From positions 558,001-622,000 of the forward strand of contig NZ_JACZCQ010000006.1 in assembly GCF_014904705.1 (NCBI RefSeq): a stretch of DNA of 64,000 nucleotides. Direction: 5' to 3'. The number at the start of each line of letters is the position of its first letter. The stretch's first letter is position 1. Below are positions 12,732 to 40,516 of this stretch, piece after piece. The notes below the pieces were generated by a model. It made no database searches and was not told the origin of the DNA. It was given only the letters and a program-made list of their open reading frames with translations. Source of the DNA: Nisaea sediminum. Its GTDB lineage: Bacteria > Pseudomonadota > Alphaproteobacteria > Thalassobaculales > Thalassobaculaceae. A program made the position numbers and the translations under genes.

Positions 12732-13625
12732 CTAGACGCGTCCCGAAAGCGCGCGCGAAACACCGCGCGAGACGACCTGCTCGCAGTGTGCCGCAAGCGC
12801 CTTGCGGTTCGCGAAAACTGCCGGGTCGACCGGCTCGTGGAACTCGACCTCGACGTCGACCCGGCCGAGCGCCAGCGCTTCCAGCAGGTGCGGCACGAGA
12901 TCCATGTCCCCGTACCAGGCATAGAACGGACGGAGTCCGCGGCCCATCGGCATGCCGTTCAGCCGTGTGTAGGTGATCGAGACCGGCTGTACCTTGAGCT
13001 CACCGGCCGGATCGCGCGCCTCGGCGGCGGCGAACATGGAGCTCTTGAATGGCAGCGTGCGGTTGCCGTCGTTGCTGGTGCCCTCGGGAAACAGCACCAG
13101 GCGGTCCCCGCCGGCGAGCCGGTCGGCGATGGCATTGGCATGGTGCTTCGAACGGCCCCGGCGGCGCTCGACGAACACCGTGCGCTGCAGAATCGCCAGC
13201 AGGCCGAAGCCGGGCCAGCTCTTCACCTCGCTCTTGGCGATGAAGCTCGCCCGGAGCAGGCTTCCCAGAATGACAATGTCGAAATAGGAGGCGTGGTTGC
13301 TGGCGTAGAGCACCGGCCCCTTGGCCAACGGGCGACCCCGCACCTTCACCCTGAAGCCGAGCAGGCGGGCGCAAAGCCCGTGATAGAAGACCGGCAGCGC
13401 CGAGGACATCGGCGAGCGGAATGCCAGCAGGAGCATCTGCAGCGGCAGAAGCGTGCAGGTCAGCGCACCGTAGAGCGCGATCCGGCGCCAGACCAGGGTG
13501 CGCGACGGCGCGACCATGCCCGCCGCTTCGACGGGCTCGAGGTTGCGCTCCCACGATCCCAGGAGACCGGGATCACCGAGGATGTCCTCCTCGTTCAGCT
13601 CCTCAAGCGCTCCGGCGATGCTCAT
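12732..13625 (-). CDS. olsA: Lyso-ornithine lipid O-acyltransferase (1-acylglycerol-phosphate acyltransferase family)
   Basis: Second step of ornithine-lipid synthesis: acylates the 3-hydroxyl of lyso-ornithine lipid. 297 residues from the ATG at 13623-13625. It has a hydrophobic segment (LYGALTCTLLPLQMLLLAF), the acyltransferase HX4D motif NHASYFD, and the FPEGTSND motif. By sequence alone it could be PlsC, but it overlaps olsB by four bases (ATGA), and the pair olsB-olsA is diagnostic for the ornithine-lipid pathway. Expression should follow that of olsB, downstream of the Pho-box-like array at 14660-14699. Confidence 0.85.
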   Translation of the reverse strand: MSIAGALEELNEEDILGDPGLLGSWERNLEPVEAAGMVAPSRTLVWRRIALYGALTCTLLPLQMLLLAFRSPMSSALPVFYHGLCARLLGFRVKVRGRPLAKGPVLYASNHASYFDIVILGSLLRASFIAKSEVKSWPGFGLLAILQRTVFVERRRGRSKHHANAIADRLAGGDRLVLFPEGTSNDGNRTLPFKSSMFAAAEARDPAGELKVQPVSITYTRLNGMPMGRGLRPFYAWYGDMDLVPHLLEALALGRVDVEVEFHEPVDPAVFANRKALAAHCEQVVSRGVSRALSGRV

Positions 13626-14503
13626 TGGATCGAGATCCCGCGCGCTTCGCGTTCGTAGTGCTTGTAGTATTTGTCGGAGACGCTGCTGGTCTCGACGATC
13701 ACGCAGACATCCGTGGTATTGAACTGATGATCGATCACCGCGCCGTGCCCGACATAGCCGCCGAGCCGGAGATAACCCTTGATCAGCGGCGGCAGCGTGG
13801 CCGCGGTGCGGCGCGGATCGATCTCTTCCGCCACCATGCGGTTCATTTCGACATAGCGTTCCGGCAGCGCCGTCGCCCGGATCCGCTCCGGCGCCAGATG
13901 CTGGTGATGGAGATAGGCGAGCTGCGTCCGCAGCGCCTCGGCATCGTTGCCCGGCAGGCTGGCGCAACCGAACATCAGCGAGATGTCGTTCTGGAACACG
14001 TAGGCCGCGATGCCCTTCCAGAGCAGCTGCATGGTCGGACGGGTTCGGTAGCCGCTCGCGGTGCAGGAGCGGCCAAGCTCAAGGATCTCGCCCGGCTGGG
14101 CCTCCAGCCTGGAGATGTCGAATTCATCGGCGGTGTAGAACCCGCCGGCGGTCTCGGCGGCAGAGCGACGGATCAGGCGGTAGGTGCCGACCACCGCTTC
14201 CGGGCCGTTTCCAAGGCTGTGATCGAGCACGAGAAGATGGTCGGCCACATCGTCGAAAGAATCCTCGTCGAGGCGGCTGGCGCTGGCGGCAGCCGACGGG
14301 ATCGCGCCCATCTCCTCATAGAACACCCGGTAACGCAGCTGCTTCGCTGCGAGAATGTCCTCTTCCCCCGAAGCGAGCTTTACTTCCAGGGAGCCGGAGA
14401 GCAGCGGCTGATCGCCAAGCCGGTCCGAACCGGCGATGGAGACCGGGCTGGTTTCGGAGAGCGTCGTGCGCGTCGGAATCGAGAATCCCATGATCAGTCG
14501 CAT
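13622..14503 (-). CDS. olsB: L-ornithine N-alpha-acyltransferase OlsB
   Basis: First step of ornithine-lipid synthesis: transfers 3-hydroxyacyl from acyl-ACP to ornithine. 293 residues from 14503, or 289 from the ATG at 14491. GNAT-type fold: the core begins VKLASGEEDILAAKQLRYRVFYEEMGA and continues through VVGTYRLIRR, EILELGRSCTASGYRTRPTMQLLWKGIAAYV and MFGCASLPG, the pattern of the OlsB/hemolysin-like family. Stop overlaps the olsA start. The upstream gap of about 270 bases holds no gene but contains the Pho-box-like array, which fits the known induction of ols genes by phosphate limitation in rhizobia. Confidence 0.88.
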   Translation of the reverse strand: MRLIMGFSIPTRTTLSETSPVSIAGSDRLGDQPLLSGSLEVKLASGEEDILAAKQLRYRVFYEEMGAIPSAAASASRLDEDSFDDVADHLLVLDHSLGNGPEAVVGTYRLIRRSAAETAGGFYTADEFDISRLEAQPGEILELGRSCTASGYRTRPTMQLLWKGIAAYVFQNDISLMFGCASLPGNDAEALRTQLAYLHHQHLAPERIRATALPERYVEMNRMVAEEIDPRRTAATLPPLIKGYLRLGGYVGHGAVIDHQFNTTDVCVIVETSSVSDKYYKHYEREARGISIQ

Positions 14504-14659
14504 CCCTATCTTCGGGGCCGCAGGTCACCGGAACCGAGGATGCCGCCGCGGCCGCAAATCCATGGCTCCGATATGGGTACGCGTTGCGCCGCCGCCAGAA
14601 AAATCGCCCGGACGGCGTGGCGGATGGATCCGGAAGAGCCTATCCGATGCTCGCTTATA

Positions 14660-14699
14660 CCGACAGACCGATGACAGTTTTCACACATTCGCATGACAG
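14660..14699 (-). promoter_or_regulatory. Tandem Pho-box-like array upstream of olsBA (putative PhoB site)
   Basis: Read on the minus strand, four 7-mers at exact 11-base spacing: CTGTCAT, ATGTGTG, CTGTCAT and CTGTCGG, separated by 4-base spacers (GCGA, AAAA, CGGT). The last two form an almost canonical 18-base PhoB box. The direction faces olsB, whose start is about 157 bases downstream. TATAAG follows the last repeat directly, but the true -10 is not certain. No other match this good was noticed in the window. Confidence 0.75.
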
Positions 14700-14772
14700 T
14701 CTGGTTGCAGCGGAAATCCGCTAAAAACCGGTATCTTCGCCTGATCCGTCGCGCCCGCGCCGGCCGCGATCG

Positions 14773-15249
14773 TCAATCGTCGAAGATTAGCTGCATCATT
14801 ATGGCATCGGCGTGGCTGCCATTGCCCGATTTGTAATAGTTCGGACGGCGGTCGAACGCCGTCATTCCGAGGGCCTCGTAAAGCCGGATCGCCGGCAGAT
14901 TGCCGTCCTGAACCTCGAGAAGCAACCTCTCCGCTCCCGCGTTGCGGGCCTTGTGCATGGCATGCAGCATGAGCAGCCGCCCGAAGCCATGGCGGCGCTG
15001 CTCCGGGGCAACGGCGACAGTCAGGATCTCGGCAAAGTCGCCCAGGCTGCGAAACAGAACGAATCCCGCGAACCGGGGCTGGCCTTCGATATCGAGGATC
15101 GCCGCGCCGGCCGTTCCCGGCACCGCGAGGAGCTCCTCCAGCGCAGCGCGCGACCAAGGCCTCTCGAAGAGCGCGCCGTGCAACCGGGCGGCCTCTGCAA
15201 GATGCGCCGTCAGGCTCTCGTCCAGCACGAACCGTCCGCCTGTCATCAT
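14773..15249 (-). CDS. rimI: Ribosomal-protein-alanine N-acetyltransferase RimI
   Basis: GNAT acetyltransferase; in E. coli it acetylates the N-terminal alanine of ribosomal protein S18. 158 residues with the acetyl-CoA loop VAPEQRRHGFGRLLM (Q/RxxGxG/A type), LLLEVQDGNLPAIRLYEALGM and RRPNYYKSG near the end. It overlaps tsaB by four bases (ATGA), the common tsaB-rimI pairing. The 269 bases between its stop and olsB hold the Pho-box-like array and a short IR (AGCGGA/TCCGCT) without a T-run. Confidence 0.9.
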   Translation of the reverse strand: MMTGGRFVLDESLTAHLAEAARLHGALFERPWSRAALEELLAVPGTAGAAILDIEGQPRFAGFVLFRSLGDFAEILTVAVAPEQRRHGFGRLLMLHAMHKARNAGAERLLLEVQDGNLPAIRLYEALGMTAFDRRPNYYKSGNGSHADAIMMQLIFDD

Positions 15250-15935
15250 GACGATGCCGGATGCGTGACGTCGGGCGCCCTGAGATAGAGAGGCGCGGCC
15301 TGGCTCTCGGTGCCCGCTTCGAGAAGGGCGAGACCGAGCGCGGAAACGTCGTCCGCATCCGGCACTGTGGCCGGGCTGCGGATACAGGCAGACCCGAGCA
15401 ACGCGGCGACCTTGTCCGCGGCGTCGCCCGCCAGCAGCAACGGTGCGGAGACGGCAAGCCTCGCGAGCCGCTCCGCGATGGCGTCAGCCGGGAGAGCTGC
15501 GGGCGCGCCTTCCGGCGTTCCGTCCGCCTTGAATATCTGCAGGAAGAGGTCGGCGCGCCGACTCTCCAGAACAACGGCGAGCGCATTCGAGGCATCGCCG
15601 CATGCCGCGCGCGCCGCGCGTGCGACCGCGGCGAATCCGGTAACCCCGACGACCGGAATGCCGAGCGCCTGGCCCAGCCCCTTGGCAAAGGCGAGGCCGA
15701 TCCTGAGGCCGGTAAAGGAGCCCGGACCGCGGCTGACCGCAATCGCGTCCAGGGCCTCGAAACCGAGTCCGGCTTCCCGCATGATCTCTTCGGTCATCGG
15801 GGCGAGACGCTCGGATTGTCCTCTGGTCATGTCCTCGCGGCGCACCGCGCGCACATCCGCGCCGACGCGCAGAGCAACGGAGCAGGCGCCGGTGCTGCTG
15901 TCGATGCCGAGAATTGTGCGAGGCTGGTGCGCCAT
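15246..15935 (-). CDS. tsaB: tRNA threonylcarbamoyladenosine biosynthesis protein TsaB
   Basis: Non-catalytic ASKHA-fold partner of TsaD in t6A37 synthesis on ANN-decoding tRNAs. 229 residues with the N-terminal phosphate-binding-like loop ILGIDSSTGACSVAL and the TsaB signature SRGPGSFTGLRIGLAFAKGL. Overlaps rimI downstream. Divergent from the polysaccharide deacetylase gene, with about 120 bases between the two starts that should hold promoters for both. Confidence 0.94.
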   Translation of the reverse strand: MAHQPRTILGIDSSTGACSVALRVGADVRAVRREDMTRGQSERLAPMTEEIMREAGLGFEALDAIAVSRGPGSFTGLRIGLAFAKGLGQALGIPVVGVTGFAAVARAARAACGDASNALAVVLESRRADLFLQIFKADGTPEGAPAALPADAIAERLARLAVSAPLLLAGDAADKVAALLGSACIRSPATVPDADDVSALGLALLEAGTESQAAPLYLRAPDVTHPASS

Positions 15936-32605: not shown

Positions 32606-32739
32606 TTGTCGGTTTTTCGGCTCCCGGATGTGTTTTACGGACGGTATGATAGAAATCGTCACACTCCAGGAGCTACAGATCCCGGTCATGTGAGCCGCCG
32701 AGCCCCGGCCCCGAGAAACCGTCCATAGACCGAAAGACC

Positions 32740-34236
32740 ATGAGCGAACAGCCGAGCGATACGCAGTCCGGTACGACGAACGACCTTCCCGTCGCGCTAC
32801 CGGTCTGGGACGTGTTCCGCGGCGGCCTCGTCGTGTCGCTGCCGGCGGCGATCGCGCTGGGTGCCATCGCGGCGCTCGATGCGGTCGAGCCGCTCCACGC
32901 GGCCGGTGCGTGGTGTCTGTCCCTTCTGATCGCCATGGCGATCGTGCGCCGGCATTACAGCCTGCTCGACGCCGTCAAGCGGCACATCCAGCGCCGCGCC
33001 GGATCGAACGCGCCGGAAAGGGCCTCTAAAGCGGGCGACGTACTCTCGAACATCGCCGAGGGGATCGGAGAGACCGCGGAGCTGGCTTCGGCGCTGACCC
33101 GGCTCTTCCGCGCGATCGCCGACCGCCGCAACCAGCTTCAGGCACTGAACGAGCGACATGTCTCGATCATCGACAATATTCCCGATCCCCTTCTCTTCCT
33201 CAATCAGAAGGGCAGGGTGCAGAGCATGAACAGAGCGGCGCGCGAGCAGTTCGGTGGCCGCATCATGGGCCGCGAACTGTCCCAGGTGGCCCGCGACCCG
33301 GCCTTGCTCGAGGCCGGCAACGCCGTGCTGGCGCATGGCGGCTTCCGAACCGTGGAGATTTCCCTCTCTGATCCGGTGATCCGGGTCTTCAATGTCCGCA
33401 TCGAGGCGCTTCCCGGCGAAGAGGAGGAGCAGCGCTCGGCCCTGGTGATCTTCCGCGACCTGACCGAGATCCGGCGGATCGAGAGCATGCGCGTGGATTT
33501 CGTCGCCAATGTCAGCCACGAACTGCGCACACCGCTCGCCACGCTGCACGGCTTCATCGAAACCCTGCGCGGCCCGGCACGGGACGATCTCGAGGCACAT
33601 GAGCGATTTCTCGAGATCATGGACCAGCAGACGAGCCGCATGACCCGTCTGGTCACGGATCTGCTGTCGCTCTCGCGCATCGAGGCGGCGGAACACACCG
33701 CTCCGGACCAGGAAGTGGCGCTGCGCCCGCTGGTCGAACATATCGCGGCGGCGACAGAGTTGAGCGCGGCCCGGCGCGGCATCCGCATAGCGCTGGATAT
33801 CGACCAGGAGCTGCCGCCGCTCATCGCCAACAGCGACGAGATTTCCCAGGTTCTGCAGAATCTGGTCGAGAATGCGATCAAATACGGCCGCGAACAGAGC
33901 ACGGTCACGGTTCGCGCCACTGTCGCCACCGACCTCCCCGCCTCGGTGTCGCTACAGGCCGAGGATATCGTCGCCATCAGCGTCATCGATCAGGGAGACG
34001 GTATTCCGCGCGAGCACATTCCACGCCTGACCGAACGCTTCTACCGCGTGGACACCGCCCGGTCGCGCGAAATGGGCGGCACCGGACTCGGTCTTGCCAT
34101 CGTCAAGCATATCGTCAGCCGCCACCGGGGAGCGCTGACGATCGACAGCAAGGTCGGAAAAGGCAGCACTTTCACGGTCTTCCTTCCGTGCAGGGCGCCC
34201 GGCGTCATGAAACCGAAACATTTGGCCGCCGGCTGA
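32740..34236 (+). CDS. phoR: Phosphate regulon sensor histidine kinase PhoR
   Basis: Inner-membrane kinase that phosphorylates PhoB under phosphate limitation. 498 residues: two hydrophobic segments near the N-terminus (VVSLPAAIALGAIAALDAV and AAGAWCLSLLIAMAIV) with almost no periplasmic loop, a PAS domain (ERHVSIIDNIPDPLLFLNQKGRV), the HisKA box FVANVSHELRTPLATLHGFI with the phospho-His, and HATPase motifs NLVENAIKYG, DQGDGIPREH and GGTGLGLAIVKHI. The lack of a sensing loop fits PhoR, which takes its signal from the Pst/PhoU complex encoded downstream. First gene of phoR-pstSCAB-phoU-phoB. Confidence 0.95.
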   Translation: MSEQPSDTQSGTTNDLPVALPVWDVFRGGLVVSLPAAIALGAIAALDAVEPLHAAGAWCLSLLIAMAIVRRHYSLLDAVKRHIQRRAGSNAPERASKAGDVLSNIAEGIGETAELASALTRLFRAIADRRNQLQALNERHVSIIDNIPDPLLFLNQKGRVQSMNRAAREQFGGRIMGRELSQVARDPALLEAGNAVLAHGGFRTVEISLSDPVIRVFNVRIEALPGEEEEQRSALVIFRDLTEIRRIESMRVDFVANVSHELRTPLATLHGFIETLRGPARDDLEAHERFLEIMDQQTSRMTRLVTDLLSLSRIEAAEHTAPDQEVALRPLVEHIAAATELSAARRGIRIALDIDQELPPLIANSDEISQVLQNLVENAIKYGREQSTVTVRATVATDLPASVSLQAEDIVAISVIDQGDGIPREHIPRLTERFYRVDTARSREMGGTGLGLAIVKHIVSRHRGALTIDSKVGKGSTFTVFLPCRAPGVMKPKHLAAG

Positions 34237-34297
34237 AACAAAAGCTTCACATTTTCGTAGTAATACGGTCTCCGGACCAGCGTAGGAACGGGGCGTT

Positions 34298-34316
34298 CTG
34301 ACATACACGGTGTCAG
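34298..34316. repeat. Inverted repeat upstream of pstS
   Basis: Perfect arms CTGACA and TGTCAG around a 7-base centre, 40 bases before the pstS start. The halves recall PhoB half-sites but are inverted rather than direct and have the wrong spacing, so I do not call it a Pho box; it could be a different operator or a hairpin in the phoR-pstS message. Confidence 0.4.
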
Positions 34317-34355
34317 GTACGTCCGATCACACTCCTATGTCCCGGAGGCAAAATC

Positions 34356-35396
34356 GTGCTTAGGAATTCTCTTCTGAAGGCAATCCCGCTCGCCCTTGCC
34401 GGCGTTGTCGCCATTGCCGCGGCCGCGGAAGCCCGCGACCAGATCCGCATCGTCGGGTCCTCCACCGTTTTCCCGTTCTCCACGTCGGTTGCTGAAACCT
34501 TCGGCAAGACCAGCGGCTTCAAGACGCCGGTCGTCGAAAGCACCGGTTCCGGCGGCGGCCTGAAGCTGTTCTGCGCCGGCGTCGGCGTGCAGCATCCGGA
34601 CATCACCAACGCGTCCCGCCGGATCAAGAAGTCCGAAGTCGAGACCTGCGCCAAGAACGGCGTTACCGACGTTGTCGAGGTCAAGATCGGCTTCGACGGC
34701 ATCGTCATCGGCAATGCGAAAGACGGCGCCACGTTCAACGTGACCAAGCAGCAGCTCTTCCTGGCCCTCGCCGCTGAAGTTCCGGTCGACGGCAAGATCG
34801 TCAAGAACCCGTACAACAAGTGGTCCGACATCGATAAGTCCCTGCCGGATCAGGAAATCGAAGTGCTCGGCCCGCCGCCGACCTCCGGTACCCGCGACGC
34901 CTTCGTCGAACTCGCGATGCGCCCGGGCGCCAAGTCCTTCAAGATGCTGGCCGACATGCGCAAGGCCGACAAGAAGGCGTTCCGCAAGATTTCCGACTCC
35001 ATGCGGGAAGACGGCAAGTTCATCGAAGCCGGTGAGAACGACAACCTGATCGTCCAGAAGCTGCAGGCCAATCCGGTTGCCATGGGCATCTTCGGCTTCA
35101 GCTTCCTCGACCAGAACAGCGACAAGATCAAAGGCGCTTCGGTTGCCGGCGTGCAGCCGACCTTCGACAACATCGCTGCCGGCGAATACGGCATCTCCCG
35201 CTCGCTGTACTTCTACGTGAAGTCGGCCCACATCGGTGTGGTTCCGGGCATCGAGGAATATGTTGCCGAATTCACCTCCGAGAAGGCCATCGGCGACGAA
35301 GGATACCTGACCGACAAGGGTCTGATCCCGCTGCCGCAGGCCGACCGCGAGAAATATCGCGCCGCGGCCGCGAACAAGACCAACCTGACCATGTAA
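34356..35396 (+). CDS. pstS: Phosphate-binding periplasmic protein PstS
   Basis: Periplasmic receptor of the high-affinity phosphate ABC importer. 346 residues, starting at a GTG with GGAGG seven bases upstream. A Sec signal peptide (LLKAIPLALAGVVAIAAAAEA) probably ends at AEA. Phosphate-binding segments: RIVGSSTVFPFSTSVAETF, ESTGSGGGLKLFCAGVG and SGTRDAFVEL. Codon use is cleaner and more biased than in its neighbours, as expected of a highly expressed protein. A strong hairpin pair lies between it and pstC. Confidence 0.96.
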   Translation: MLRNSLLKAIPLALAGVVAIAAAAEARDQIRIVGSSTVFPFSTSVAETFGKTSGFKTPVVESTGSGGGLKLFCAGVGVQHPDITNASRRIKKSEVETCAKNGVTDVVEVKIGFDGIVIGNAKDGATFNVTKQQLFLALAAEVPVDGKIVKNPYNKWSDIDKSLPDQEIEVLGPPPTSGTRDAFVELAMRPGAKSFKMLADMRKADKKAFRKISDSMREDGKFIEAGENDNLIVQKLQANPVAMGIFGFSFLDQNSDKIKGASVAGVQPTFDNIAAGEYGISRSLYFYVKSAHIGVVPGIEEYVAEFTSEKAIGDEGYLTDKGLIPLPQADREKYRAAAANKTNLTM

Positions 35397-35405
35397 TCAG
35401 GTCTC

Positions 35406-35431
35406 GGGAGAGGCGGTTTGCCGCCTCTCCC
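35406..35431 (+). terminator. Strong hairpin after pstS (attenuator/stabiliser)
   Basis: Perfect 11-base stem GGGAGAGGCGG (35406-35416) / CCGCCTCTCCC (35421-35431) with a TTTG loop, ten bases after the pstS stop, followed by CTGTCTTTAT rather than a long T run. Likely a partial terminator or 3' stabiliser that lets pstS be expressed above pstCAB. Confidence 0.7.
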
Positions 35432-35473
35432 CTGTCTTTATGGACCCGCATGGCGCCGGATCCATAAAGACAG
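35432..35473 (+). repeat. Second hairpin in the pstS-pstC gap
   Basis: Perfect 13-base arms CTGTCTTTATGGA (35432-35444) and TCCATAAAGACAG (35461-35473), loop of 16 bases in which CCG/CGG can add three pairs after a mismatch. It begins on the base following the first hairpin, so the two stems stack in tandem. It ends 63 bases before pstC. Confidence 0.7.
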
Positions 35474-35536
35474 CGCCATTTACGGCCCCGGACCGGTATC
35501 GGGGTCAAGTGAAGCACTCTCCGCCGGCGGGGCACA

Positions 35537-36919
35537 ATGAACAGCTTTTTCCTTCTTCTCGTCGTCATCGGGCTCTCGGTGGCGGGCTATGCCGCCGGAC
35601 GGGCCCGCTCCGTCCTCGCCGCTTCGGGCGATGTCCGCATCCTGCACTCCCTGCCGAGCTATTACGGCATGTTCGTCGCCCTCGGCTGCGGCCTGCCGGC
35701 GATCCTGCTCCTGGCGCTCTGGCTGATCATCCAGCCGCAGATCGTCGAGCACATGGTGATGGCCGGCCTCGATCCCTCGATCATGCCGCAGAACGCGGAC
35801 GAGTATTCGCTGATGCTGACCGATATCCGCAATCTGGCCAGCGGCAACGCCGTCAGCCGGGAAGCGAGCCCGGCGATCATGGCCGCGATGGAACGTTACA
35901 AGTCGCTGCAGAATATCGGTTTCTGGGGCATGGGCGCCGGTGTTGTCTGCGTCGCCATGCTGGGTCTCGTCTGGGCCCGCTCCCAGGTAAGCCGCAATTT
36001 CCGGGCCCGGAATGCCGTGGAAGGCATCATCCGGGTTCTTCTGATCATCTGCTCGATGATCGCGATCCTGACGACCGTCGGCATCGTGCTGTCGCTGATC
36101 TTCGAGAGTCTCCGCTTCTTCGCCCGGGTCCCGTTCTTCGACTTCCTGTTCGGGATCCACTGGAGCCCGCAGACCGCGATCCGCGCCGAACAAGTCGGCG
36201 CCTCCGGCAGCTTCGGCGCCGTCCCGCTCTTTGCCGGCACCATGCTGATCACCCTGATCGCCATGCTGGTCGCCGGTCCGATCGGCCTGCTCTCGGCGAT
36301 CTACATGGCGGAATATGCCAACCCGAAATTCCGCGCCGTCGCCAAGCCGATGCTGGAAATCCTCGCCGGCATCCCGACCGTGGTTTACGGCTTCTTCGCC
36401 GCGCTCACCGTCGCCCCGCTGATCCGCGGCTGGGGCGAGAGCATCGGACTCGATGTCGCCTCGGAAAGTGCGCTCGCGGCGGGCGTGGTCATGGGTATCA
36501 TGATCATCCCCTTCGTCTCGTCGCTCTCCGACGACGTGATCAATTCGGTCCCGCAATCCCTGCGCGACGGCTCCTACGGGCTCGGCGCGACCAAGTCCGA
36601 GACGATCCGCCACGTGATCATCCCGGCCGCCCTGCCGGGTATCGTCGGCGCCTTTCTGCTCGCGGTTTCGCGGGCAATCGGCGAGACCATGATCGTCGTC
36701 ATGGCCGCCGGCCTCGCCGCCAATCTGACGGCCAACCCGCTGGAAGCGGTCACCACGGTCACGGTGCAGATCGTCACTCTGTTGGTCGGCGACCAGGAAT
36801 TCGACTCCGCCAAGACCCTCGCGGCCTTCGCCCTCGGTCTGGTGCTGTTCTTCGTCACCCTCGGCCTGAATGTGATCGCCCTCCGGGTGGTCCGGAAGTA
36901 TCGGGAAAAATATGACTGA
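35537..36919 (+). CDS. pstC: Phosphate ABC transporter permease PstC (long form)
   Basis: Membrane subunit of the Pst importer. 460 residues, about 150 more than E. coli PstC. The extra N-terminal part has two hydrophobic segments (FFLLLVVIGLSVAGYAAG and FVALGCGLPAILLLALWLII) and a soluble region (about residues 75-125), as found in many alphaproteobacteria. The permease core (from about residue 170) contains the coupling loop with LGATKSETIRHVIIPAALPGIVGAF and AIGETMIVVMAAG. GGCGGGG precedes the ATG. Overlaps pstA by eight bases. Confidence 0.95.
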   Translation: MNSFFLLLVVIGLSVAGYAAGRARSVLAASGDVRILHSLPSYYGMFVALGCGLPAILLLALWLIIQPQIVEHMVMAGLDPSIMPQNADEYSLMLTDIRNLASGNAVSREASPAIMAAMERYKSLQNIGFWGMGAGVVCVAMLGLVWARSQVSRNFRARNAVEGIIRVLLIICSMIAILTTVGIVLSLIFESLRFFARVPFFDFLFGIHWSPQTAIRAEQVGASGSFGAVPLFAGTMLITLIAMLVAGPIGLLSAIYMAEYANPKFRAVAKPMLEILAGIPTVVYGFFAALTVAPLIRGWGESIGLDVASESALAAGVVMGIMIIPFVSSLSDDVINSVPQSLRDGSYGLGATKSETIRHVIIPAALPGIVGAFLLAVSRAIGETMIVVMAAGLAANLTANPLEAVTTVTVQIVTLLVGDQEFDSAKTLAAFALGLVLFFVTLGLNVIALRVVRKYREKYD

Positions 36920-38228
36920 CGCGATCATGAACTCGAAACCGGGTACCGCCGAGATCCGCCGGCCGACCGCGAGCGGCGAGCGCCTGAAGAAGCGCTACGC
37001 CGCCGAGCGGCGTTTCCGCCTGTACGGGCTGTGCAGCATTCTCGCCGCCGGCCTGATGCTGGTTTTCCTCGTCGGCAGCATTGCCGGCACCGGCTGGAGC
37101 GCGTTCCTGCAGACCTATGTGAAGCTCTCCATCACCTTCGATGCGGAATATCTCGATCCGGCAGGCACGGGCGATCCGGAGCAGCTTCAGAACGCCGACT
37201 ACGGCGCGCTGATGAAAAAGAACCTGCGCGACAACTTCCCCGAGGTGACCGGCCGGAGCGACAAGCGCAAGCTCTATAATTTCGTCTCACCGAATGCCGG
37301 TTACGTGCTCCGGAACATGGTCATCGCCGATCCGTCCCTTGCCGGAAGGACTCTCGATCTCTGGGTCAAGGCCTCCGACGATGTCGACATGCTGGCCAAG
37401 GGATATGTCGACCGCGGCGAGGCGGAGGGCAACCGCCGCGTCAGCGATACGGAGCTCGGCTGGTACGACAAGCTCGATGGCGCGGACCGCGTGGAGACCC
37501 GGTTCAACACCGATTTCTTCGTCAACGCGGACAGCCGCGAGCCGGAAGAGGCCGGGATCCTCGGTGCCGTGACCGGATCGGCCCTGACGCTGTTGATCAC
37601 ACTGCTGCTGTCCTTCCCTGTCGGTGTCATGGCCGCGGTCTATCTCGAGGAATTCGCGCCGAAGAACAACTGGACCGACCTGATCGAGGTGAACATCAAC
37701 AACCTCGCCGCGGTGCCGTCGATCGTCTTCGGCCTGCTCGGTCTCGCGATGTTCCTGAACTTCTTCGGCTTCCCGCGCTCCGCCCCGCTCGTCGGCGGCA
37801 TGGTGCTGGCGCTGATGACGCTGCCGACCATCATCATCGCGGCGCGCTCGGCCCTGAAGGCGGTGCCGCCCTCGATCCGCGAGGCCGCGCTCGGCCTTGG
37901 CGCCTCCCCGCTGCAGGTGGTCACCCATCATGTGCTGCCGCTGGCGATGCCGGGCATCCTGACTGGAACCATCATCGGCATGGCGCAGGCACTCGGCGAG
38001 ACCGCGCCGCTGCTGATGATCGGCATGATCGCCTTCATCGTCGACATTCCGGGCGGCTTCGCCGATCCCGCCACCGTGCTTCCGGTGCAGATCTATCTCT
38101 GGGCGGACAGTCCCGAACGCGCCTTCGTCGAACGCACTTCGGCCGCCATCATGGTGCTGCTGGCGTTCCTGATTTTCATGAATTTCGTCGCCGTCCTGCT
38201 CCGCAGGAAGTTCGAGCGGCGCTGGTAG
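36912..38228 (+). CDS. pstA: Phosphate ABC transporter permease PstA (long form)
   Basis: Partner permease of PstC. 438 residues. After one membrane segment ([18 protein letters not shown]) comes a roughly 150-residue extracytoplasmic insertion (from [18 protein letters not shown] to [12 protein letters not shown]), which corresponds to the DUF3333-type N-terminal region seen in alphaproteobacterial PstA. The core has [28 protein letters not shown] and [14 protein letters not shown]. Its start lies inside pstC, and pstB follows after seven bases. Confidence 0.95.
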
Positions 38229-38235
38229 GTTTCCG

Positions 38236-39045
38236 ATGAGCGAGAAAGCAAAGATGAGCAAGACGAGCGGTTCCTCGGCCTCCACCGCGACGCCGAAGAT
38301 GAAGGGCGACAAGGTCAAGGTCTTCTACGGCGAAAAGCAGGCGCTGATGGATGTCGATCTTGAGATCAAGCCGAACGAGGTGACGGCACTGATCGGTCCG
38401 TCCGGCTGCGGCAAGTCCACCTTCCTGCGCTGCCTCAACCGGATGAACGACGTCATCGACATCTGCCGGGTCGAAGGCAAGATCACCCTCGACGACGAGG
38501 ACATCTACAGCTCTGACCTCGATCCGGTGCAGCTTCGCGCCCGGGTCGGCATGGTGTTCCAGAAGCCGAACCCGTTCCCGAAATCGATCTATGACAACAT
38601 CGCCTACGGCCCGCGCATCCACGGCACGGCCGCGAGCAAGGCCGAGATCGACGAGATCGTCGAGACCAGCCTGACCAAGGCCGGCCTCTGGGAGGAGGTG
38701 AAGGACCGCCTGCTGGAACCCGGCACCGGTCTCTCCGGCGGACAGCAACAGCGGCTCTGCATCGCCCGCGCGATCGCGGTCAACCCGGAAGTGATCCTGA
38801 TGGACGAGCCCTGCTCGGCGCTCGATCCGATCGCGACGGCGAAGATCGAGGAGCTGATCGACGAGCTGCGCGAGAACTTCACCATCGTGATCGTCACTCA
38901 CTCCATGCAGCAGGCCGCCCGCGTCTCCCAGCGCACCGCCTTTTTCCATCTGGGCGAGCTGGTCGAGGTCGGCGATACCGAGCAGATCTTCACCAATCCG
39001 ACGGATTCCCGCACCCAGGGATACATCACCGGGCGGTTCGGCTGA
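38236..39045 (+). CDS. pstB: Phosphate ABC transporter ATPase PstB
   Basis: ATP-hydrolysing subunit of the Pst importer. 269 residues: Walker [15 protein letters not shown]-loop [17 protein letters not shown] (the PNPFP is typical of PstB), signature [17 protein letters not shown], Walker [14 protein letters not shown], switch His IVTHSM. The N-terminal 20 residues are Ser/Lys-rich and not conserved. Also the likely contact point through which transport status reaches PhoU and PhoR. Confidence 0.97.
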
Positions 39046-39068
39046 TCCGGGCCATTGAGAGCACACAG

Positions 39069-39782
39069 ATGCCGATGAACGACCACATTGTCCGCTCCTT
39101 CGACGAGGATCTCGATACCCTGAAAGCCAAGATCGCCCAGATGGGTGGGTTGGTCGAAGCGCAGTGTGAGTCCGCAGTCCGCGCCGTGCATCGCCGCGAT
39201 CAGGCGCTGGCGCAGAAGGTGCGCGAAGCGGACGGCCGGATCGACGCGCTCGAGGCCGAGATCGAGGCGATGAGTCTCCGCCTGCTCGCGCTGCGCCAGC
39301 CGCTCGGCGGCGATCTTCGAACCGTCGTTGCCAGCCTCAAGATCGTCAGCGACCTGGAACGGATCGGCGACTATGCCGCCAATATCGGCAAGCGGGCGAT
39401 CGTGCTCAGCGGCCTGCCGGAAATTCCGCCGGCCAACGGCATCGTGCGGATCGGCAGCCTGGTGAAGTCGCTGATCAAGGACGTTCTGGACGCCTATGCC
39501 GATGACGATCTCGAGCTCGCCGTCGCCGCCTGGCACCGGGACGAGGACATCGACGAGCTCTATACCAGCCTGTTCCGCGAACTCCTGACCTACATGATGG
39601 AGGATCCGCGCAACATCACGGCATCGACTCACCTTCTCTTCATTGCCAAGAACCTGGAGCGGATGGGCGATCACGCGACCAACATCGCCGAGACCGTGCA
39701 CTTCCAGATCAAGGGAAAGAAAATGGAAGCGGATCGCCCGAAAGGCGAGGACGCCAGCTACGTCGTCGAAATGCCTGAGTAA
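39069..39782 (+). CDS. phoU: Phosphate signalling protein PhoU
   Basis: Negative regulator that links Pst activity to PhoR. 237 residues forming two PhoU three-helix repeats: LKAKIAQMGGLVEAQCESAVRAV with LRTVVASLKIVSDLERIGDYAANIGKR, then a second copy with STHLLFIAKNLERMGDHATNIAETV. The E/DxxRxxDH-like metal sites are present in both repeats (LERIGDYAANI and LERMGDHATNI). An ATG two codons later (39075) is an alternative start. 24 bases after pstB, 26 before phoB. Confidence 0.96.
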   Translation: MPMNDHIVRSFDEDLDTLKAKIAQMGGLVEAQCESAVRAVHRRDQALAQKVREADGRIDALEAEIEAMSLRLLALRQPLGGDLRTVVASLKIVSDLERIGDYAANIGKRAIVLSGLPEIPPANGIVRIGSLVKSLIKDVLDAYADDDLELAVAAWHRDEDIDELYTSLFRELLTYMMEDPRNITASTHLLFIAKNLERMGDHATNIAETVHFQIKGKKMEADRPKGEDASYVVEMPE

Positions 39783-39808
39783 GCGTTGAAATCGAGAGTA
39801 GAAGTCCG

Positions 39809-40516
39809 ATGAATATGATGAGTCAGAAGATCCTGGTGGTGGAGGACGAGGCGCCGATCGTCACCCTCCTGCGCTACAATCTGGAACGGGAAGGCTTCGA
39901 GGTCCTGGAGGCCGGTGACGGCGAGGAAGCGATGCTTCTCGCGATGGAAAAGAACCCCGACCTGATCCTGCTCGACTGGATGCTGCCGCTGCTCTCCGGC
40001 GTCGAGGTCTGCCGCCGGCTCCGCCGCACGCCCGAGACCAAGGCCATCCCGGTCATCATGCTGACCGCCCGCGGCGACGAGGGGGACCGCATCCGCGGCC
40101 TCAATGCCGGTGCCGACGACTACATCACAAAACCGTTCAGCCCGAGCGAGCTGATCGCCCGCATCCGCGCGGTCCTGCGCCGGACGCGCCCCGCAAGCGA
40201 CGCGGAAACGCTGCAGTTCGAGGATCTGGAAATGGACCTGGCCGCCCACAAGGTGCGCCGGAACGAGCGCGAGATCCATCTCGGCCCGACCGAGTTCCGG
40301 CTGCTGCGCTATTTCCTCGAGCATCCGGGGCGGGTGTTCTCCCGCGAGCAGCTGCTCGACCGGGTCTGGGGACCGGATATCTATGTCGAACCGCGCACCG
40401 TGGACGTGCATATCCGCCGTCTGCGCAAGGCGATCAACATCGATACCGAATCCGATCTGATCCGCACCGTGCGGTCGGCAGGCTACGCGCTCGACCGACC
40501 GAGCGCCGCCGCCTGA
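39809..40516 (+). CDS. phoB: Phosphate regulon response regulator PhoB
   Basis: OmpR-type response regulator that activates the Pho regulon. 235 residues: receiver domain with acidic pair VVEDEAPIV, phospho-Asp in LILLDWMLPLLSG, and conserved Lys in DYITKPFSPSEL; winged-helix domain with LGPTEFRLLRYFLEHPGRVFSREQLLDRVWG and RTVDVHIRRLRKAI, the PhoB recognition helix. Last gene of the phoR-pst-phoU-phoB cluster. It is the expected ligand of the array upstream of olsBA. Confidence 0.96.
   Translation: MNMMSQKILVVEDEAPIVTLLRYNLEREGFEVLEAGDGEEAMLLAMEKNPDLILLDWMLPLLSGVEVCRRLRRTPETKAIPVIMLTARGDEGDRIRGLNAGADDYITKPFSPSELIARIRAVLRRTRPASDAETLQFEDLEMDLAAHKVRRNEREIHLGPTEFRLLRYFLEHPGRVFSREQLLDRVWGPDIYVEPRTVDVHIRRLRKAINIDTESDLIRTVRSAGYALDRPSAAA

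Follow-up and report, generated by a model that had tools for sequence, protein, structure and literature searches.

A predicted PhoB-controlled promoter for the ornithine-lipid genes olsBA in Nisaea

The olsBA locus and the register of its half-sites

The window, by which we mean the whole 64-kb stretch of DNA analyzed, carries on its minus strand the adjacent predicted genes olsB and olsA and, in the 269 bases that separate a rimI-like gene from olsB, an array of 7-mers in sense orientation toward olsB. The features of this region are as follows.

12732..13625, minus strand: olsA, predicted lyso-ornithine lipid O-acyltransferase; start inferred
13622..14503, minus strand: olsB, predicted L-ornithine N-acyltransferase; its top NCBIfam matches are two OlsB models
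14654..14659, minus strand: predicted -10 element TATAAG, 11 nt past half-site 3; invariant in 5/5 genus genomes
14660..14666, minus strand: CTGTCGG, unit 4 of an earlier note, read here as spacer; only the TCGG beside the -10 element is invariant
14671..14677, minus strand: putative PhoB half-site 3 (CTGTCAT), promoter proximal; TGTCA invariant in 5/5 genus genomes
14682..14688, minus strand: putative PhoB half-site 2 (ATGTGTG), degenerate, 3/7 to consensus
14693..14699, minus strand: putative PhoB half-site 1 (CTGTCAT), consensus; TGTCAT invariant in 5/5 genus genomes
14704..14710, minus strand: putative PhoB half-site 0 (CTGCAAC), absent from the earlier note's list, in 11-base phase with the others
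14773..15249, minus strand: rimI-like gene; the array lies in the gap past its stop codon

The two OlsB models matched olsB with 285.5 bits (cut-off, 320) and 279.6 bits (cut-off, 350), and olsA, scanned as 12732-13634, reached 294.6 bits against the NCBIfam OlsA model (cut-off, 300). Within the window, the olsA ATG overlaps the olsB stop codon (ATGA). The rimI-like gene has rimI as its top NCBIfam match (82.2 bits; cut-off, 86.4), and TsaB and MiaB, encoded in the same minus-strand gene run, scored above their cut-offs.

Read on the minus strand from 14699 to 14660, the sequence is CTGTCATgcgaATGTGTGaaaaCTGTCATcggtCTGTCGG, in which four 7-mers follow each other in exact 11-base steps and match CTGTCAT at 7, 3, 7, and 5 of 7 positions. 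This confirms the earlier note, which had described four 7-mers in 11-base phase on the minus strand, pointing toward olsB. Tandem Repeats Finder returned 0 rows for 14000-15500.

We compared the region among five genomes of the genus, including the window's own; their upstream regions align well in blocks only. Across 14660-14699, 72.5% of the bases were invariant, compared to 38.5% in the intergenic region outside 14650-14710, and the stretch directly at the olsB start was at least as conserved as the array. The invariant runs were TGCAACCAG, TGTCAT, TGTGTGAAAA, TGTCA, and TCGGTATAAGC. Despite its poor match to the consensus, half-site 2 kept TGTGTG and the AAAA after it in all five genomes. 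CTGTCGG was rejected as a fourth half-site, as three of the five genomes lack it: G019 has the same 7-mer, and ATCTCGG, AAGTCGG, and CAGTCGG take its place in G016, G018, and G017, respectively. Because its first bases vary whereas the TATAAGC behind it stays invariant, CTGTCGG would not be part of the array. At the other end, half-site 0 matches CTGTCAT at 4/7 positions, has TGCAAC invariant in 5/5 genomes, and falls within the top four-unit score. Averaged over the genus, that score was 13.97 bits in the shifted register versus 8.53 bits in the register of the earlier note. Judged from these alignments, the conserved four-unit register is 14671-14710 (CTGCAAC, CTGTCAT, ATGTGTG, CTGTCAT), and the earlier one is one unit off.

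Phosphate genes of the window and PhoB-matrix scans

The window also contains phoR-pstSCAB-phoU-phoB, as previously proposed; NCBIfam matches place these genes at 32740-40516 on the plus strand.

32740..34236, plus strand: phoR, sensor kinase (TIGR02966, 334.5 bits; cut-off, 334.2)
34233..34250, plus strand: predicted pstS Pho box, weaker, CTGAAACaaaaGCTTCAC, with TAATAC at 34261-34266; kept in 5/5 genus genomes
34356..39782, plus strand: pstS, pstC, pstA, pstB, and phoU (NCBIfam matches)
39809..40516, plus strand: phoB, regulator (TIGR02154, 356.6 bits; cut-off, 296.2)

PstS stayed under its NCBIfam cut-off (138.2 versus 206.6 bits), while PstC, PstA, PstB, and PhoU exceeded theirs. phoR and pstS are closely consecutive, and the pstS box overlaps the phoR stop codon, so that the predicted promoter would separate phoR from pstS. 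Before phoR, a conserved stretch at 32644-32664 (consensus, GTATGATAGAAACCGTCATAC) is part dyad and part Pho-box-like; as TATGATAgaaaCYGTCAY it may be a poor Pho box, and its matrix rank is low.

To score PhoB half-sites, we used a matrix that is independent of the window and derived from E. coli: ten boxes, some with common half-sites, from the K-12 promoters of phoA, phoB, pstS, ugpB, and phoE (phnC was also used and gave no box). When four units in 11-base phase were scanned along the two strands of the window, 14671-14710 ranked first with 17.6 bits and 14660-14699 second with 17.1 bits; the third place, the pstS promoter, was far lower at 5.9 bits. A two-unit half-site scan also put the olsB site first and second. 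With phases of 9, 10, 12, and 13, the best scores were 12.3, 12.3, 7.3, and 6.1 bits, all at other places.

Chance was gauged with 60 64-kb windows simulated by first-order Markov resampling, which is not an exact shuffle; the estimate gives no credit for the placement and orientation of the site in the gap of 269 bases ahead of olsB. On average, the best four-unit score of such a window was 5.4, and a single window of the 60 reached 17.07; with three units, the observed 15.54 was reached by 3 of the 60. The pattern CTGTCATN4CTGTCAT with up to two mismatches occurred once in the window and at least once in 15 of 100 shuffles, and the 5.02-Mb genome contained 11 matches versus 4 when the pattern was reversed as a control. 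By itself, the two-unit pattern is therefore much weaker evidence than the four-unit scan. Elsewhere, an 11-phased array at 1479-1518 of locus L008 (CGGTCACcaaaCCCCAACgaaaCTGTCATcgagCGGTCAC), flanked by frames that we read as ribosomal protein S20 and DnaA, is directed away from the DnaA frame and was set aside as chance.

We further ranked aligned positions, on both strands, at the loci of olsB, pstS, three phnC genes, and btaA (five genomes each) and of phoR (four genomes, without G018, whose contig ends there). Here btaA denotes the gene for a protein of PF11899, which we take to be the BtaA family; it is present in 5/5 genus genomes with a conserved box upstream. Because these loci were chosen around phosphate genes, whose promoters are over-represented, the ranking is favored; within it, the highest genus-mean four-unit score among the 44,628 aligned positions of the seven loci, 13.97 bits, was at olsB. 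The olsB promoter took the first and second places, followed by a place past the start of one phnC gene and by the pstS promoter. With an 18-column E. coli matrix, the top four of 44,936 positions were the promoters of phnD, pstS (ranked second), olsB (units 0-1), and btaA, all in sense orientation. In the two-unit half-site ranking, olsB led, ahead of a place within the pst genes; the pstS promoter came third and btaA only seventh, with coding positions intervening among the promoters. Among the three phnC sets, the phnC_A promoter had no box and phnC_C only an uneven array.

Promoter plan and the predicted lipid switch

The promoters found in this way have a common plan. At olsB it reads ATGTGTG-aaaa-CTGTCAT, 11 nt, TATAAG; at pstS, CTGAAAC-aaaa-GCTTCAC, 10 nt, TAATAC; at phnD of the phnD-phnC operon, CCGTCAT-caaa-CGGTCAA, 10 nt, TATGGT, where CTGCAAC also occupies the next step upstream, like at olsB; and at btaA of the window's genome, CTGAAAC-aaag-CTGAAAC, 10 nt, TATGAG. 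By eye, a hexamer beginning with TA stands 10 nt past the last unit at btaA, pstS, phnD, and E. coli phoA. The pstS, phnD, and btaA boxes are conserved in the genus, and their half-sites are weaker (CTGAAAC, CCGTCAT). A composite scan scored units 0 and 1 together with an A-rich hexamer higher than the arrangement ending in TATAAG; since it picks a different hexamer, the assignment of TATAAG as the -10 element rests on invariance. Taken together, we read the olsB element as a tandem pair of Pho boxes that substitutes for a -35 element, as at E. coli phoA.

Allowing one mismatch, a pattern of the composite plan matched olsB in 5/5 genus genomes. It had one further match in the window's own genome, read as coding, and the reversed control also had one. 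This further match (L148; same place in G016 and G019) was rejected, being the reverse complement of a coding start read from its translation as phosphoglycerate mutase. The pattern TGTCAN6TGTCAN{7,14}TATAA matched in 0/5 genus genomes. An earlier model, R1, based on sequence only, returned no place in the genome; in the window it placed the olsB site first (5.2 bits; E, 3.1). Model R2 was built from btaA, pstS, phnD, E. coli phoA and pstS, and olsB of G012, G013, and L107, without the window's olsB. In the window, the olsB site was its best match outside the training set, though at 7.3 bits (E, 0.69), and in the genome search, with E up to 10, the olsB site was not reported. That search returned four places, the btaA, phnD, and pstS promoters used in training and a new one, L188. 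L188 (G000:C2:93903-93931, minus strand; CTGAAATcgaaCTGTCAC; 15.0 bits; E, 0.16) lies upstream of a gene for a BMP-family (PF02608) substrate-binding protein and is a possible further Pho promoter.

Given its matrix rank, its 5/5 conservation, the invariant -10-like hexamer, and the boxes at pstS, phnD, and btaA, the best reading of 14671-14710 is a PhoB-driven Pho promoter for olsBA. We consider very likely the following account, in which low phosphate would raise ornithine lipid through this element and betaine lipid through btaA. The array sequence, its rank, its conservation, and the common promoter plan were observed directly; from them we infer that PhoB binds, where transcription starts, and that phosphate alters olsBA expression and the membrane lipids. 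In this protein family, it is established that PhoR phosphorylates PhoB in low phosphate. As phosphate falls in Nisaea, the PhoB so phosphorylated would bind as head-to-tail dimers on the four half-sites, as two tandem boxes on one face of the helix, and the promoter-proximal box would substitute for the -35 element and hold RNA polymerase at TATAAG (14654-14659). Transcription would start at about 14647 and run through olsB and the overlapping olsA, giving more ornithine lipid. Through the btaA box, betaine lipid would go up as well, and phospholipid would be replaced by the two phosphorus-free lipids.

The membrane-lipid switch foreseen in the earlier note gains support, as a prediction, from the conserved box before olsBA. 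It probably covers two phosphorus-free lipids, ornithine and betaine lipid, and not one: betaine lipid should rise too, because the conserved box upstream of btaA follows the olsB plan, and a methyltransferase gene beside btaA in the window's genome (G000) is, by position, a candidate btaB. The case for a double switch also draws on Sinorhizobium meliloti, in which btaA and btaB are listed among highly induced phosphate-stress genes (PMC8829014), their expression is placed under PhoB regulation (PMC3972451), and ornithine lipid synthesis is described as PhoB induced and regulated (PMC7814305).

OmpR/PhoB-family regulators other than PhoB also bind head-to-tail direct repeats, spaced about 10 to 11 bases. 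One of them could bind the olsB repeats, and olsBA would then answer another stress, such as acid or envelope damage. Half-site 2, unlike the consensus yet invariant, fits this explanation, as do the weak score of olsB under a model built on other Pho promoters of the genus and the reported links of ornithine lipids to other stresses (PMC12186959). Nevertheless, the two perfect CTGTCAT units, and the first rank in the window under a matrix made purely from E. coli Pho promoters, make it improbable. Still less probable is a PhoB-bound promoter that mainly makes a short RNA from the leader of about 145 bases or does no more than supplement constitutive transcription reading through from rimI, leaving ornithine lipid nearly unaffected by phosphate. 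In its favor are the length of the predicted leader and the rimI-like gene upstream in the same orientation; against it, olsB follows directly downstream and olsA overlaps it. A chance cluster of 7-mers is hardly credible as a full account, for although the two-unit pattern recurs in the genome (11 matches versus 4 in the reversed control) and a few simulated windows reach the four-unit (1/60) or three-unit (3/60) score, the site is conserved in 5/5 genomes amid a much-diverged flank and stands before the expected gene.

Under the preferred reading, a PhoB-driven olsBA promoter, the strongest Pho box in the window belongs to olsBA, with consensus CTGTCAT and two tandem boxes, and pstS and btaA have CTGAAAC-type units. 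A speculative and rather doubtful extension is that the genus might begin ornithine lipid synthesis at a milder phosphate shortage than high-affinity transport, sparing phosphate before scavenging it; the earlier onset would follow if half-site strength sets the threshold. If true, sister genera without a recognizable box would make ornithine lipid irrespective of phosphate.

Distribution beyond the genus and known systems

In a survey of the order, whose counts concern olsB, the gene was found in 34 of 36 genomes, 29 of them outside the genus; it was not found in G007 and G035 (68% and 73% complete). At the 95% control level of the composite scan, 11 of the 34 passed in the sense orientation versus 4 on the opposite strand. 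Those passing were all five of the genus, G012, G013, G021, G003, G032, and G002, the last two probably by chance. G012 and G013, which belong to a different genus sampled by three genomes, have a clear TTGTCAC, 10 nt, and TATGTT or TATGAT; in G021 and G003, the box and -10 plan is weaker. The remaining 23 of the 29 fell below the control level, with a scan matrix that is of distant origin and can miss divergent boxes, as the Burkholderia case below illustrates. Among those failing are Thalassobaculum litoreum and its group, the strain BAL199 group, and Endolissoclinum, whose aligned promoters show no box by eye. Hence, retention of the repeats in relatives with olsB, which the earlier note had raised, held inside the genus (5/5) but not outside it, and because 23 of the 29 other genomes have no passing box, we predict the phosphate switch in this genus and a few further lineages rather than across the family.

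A second set consisted of named loci, the best 80 of 400 confirmed relatives, with orders further off outside the sample; at least six of the 80 (L072, L081, L082, L095, L096, and L102) overlap the order set. Ten of the best 80 passed the composite scan versus seven on the opposite strand, and four-unit scores did not differ as a set between sense and antisense (Wilcoxon P = 0.10). Scores of at least 5 bits occurred in 4/80 sense versus 0/80 opposite-strand scans, and the only convincing arrays in these best 80 were at three Thalassospira loci and one MAG, L107.

Four loci of the Thalassobaculum group (L021, L022, L023, and L025) share another conserved block close to the start of olsB, in which GATGTC precedes GATAGCGGCA; upstream of it stands GACATC in three of the four and GGCATC in G026, and no Pho box was seen there. 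In L029 (G023) and L020 (G010), the olsB match contains one internal stop (TAA and TGA, respectively), which may be the gene end.

A parallel in promoter structure is E. coli phoA (NC_000913), in which a half-site, 4 nt, and a half-site are likewise followed by a -10 element instead of the usual -35/-10 pair. There, TATAGT stands 10 nt past the last half-site, whereas the distance at Nisaea olsB is 11 nt, and phoA has one clear box where olsB has two in tandem. S. meliloti resembles the case predicted here in that its ornithine lipid synthesis and btaAB are described as PhoB controlled or phosphate-stress induced; regulation there is experimental, whereas the Nisaea side is predicted.

PhoB-type boxes before olsB are on record as well. 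For Agrobacterium tumefaciens, a putative Pho box is reported in the olsB promoter, as predicted for Nisaea, and both ornithine lipids of strain A208 are reported to accumulate at low phosphate (PMC3972451); those lipids were measured, while the Nisaea case is wholly predicted. In Acinetobacter, the predicted olsB box resembles CTGTCATN4CTGTCAT, a likeness to the Nisaea element, and phosphate limitation is reported to induce olsB, with the lipids lost upon deletion of phoR (PMC11828411). Acinetobacter olsA is described as having no box and not responding, whereas Nisaea olsA, which overlaps olsB, should be co-induced. In Burkholderia sensu lato, a first matrix predicted Pho boxes before olsB in 21/43 genomes, a patchiness like that in the order of Nisaea, and a matrix re-made from those sites gave boxes in 43/43, with the data described as not shown in that source (PMC7814305). 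Patchiness can thus depend on the matrix in Burkholderia, and the same may apply to the order of Nisaea.

Within the literature library searched, no paper turned up on ornithine lipid and phosphate in Thalassospira or on ornithine lipid in Nisaea. By prediction, the present analysis extends phosphate-controlled lipid replacement to a genus in the family holding Thalassobaculum and provides a compact list of promoters for joint study (olsBA, btaA, pst, and phn). The patchy box among relatives that keep olsB also offers a natural comparison of phosphate-switched with possibly unswitched ornithine lipid. Altogether, with predicted olsB Pho boxes previously published for Agrobacterium, Burkholderia, and Acinetobacter, Nisaea is, by prediction, a new instance of a known arrangement.
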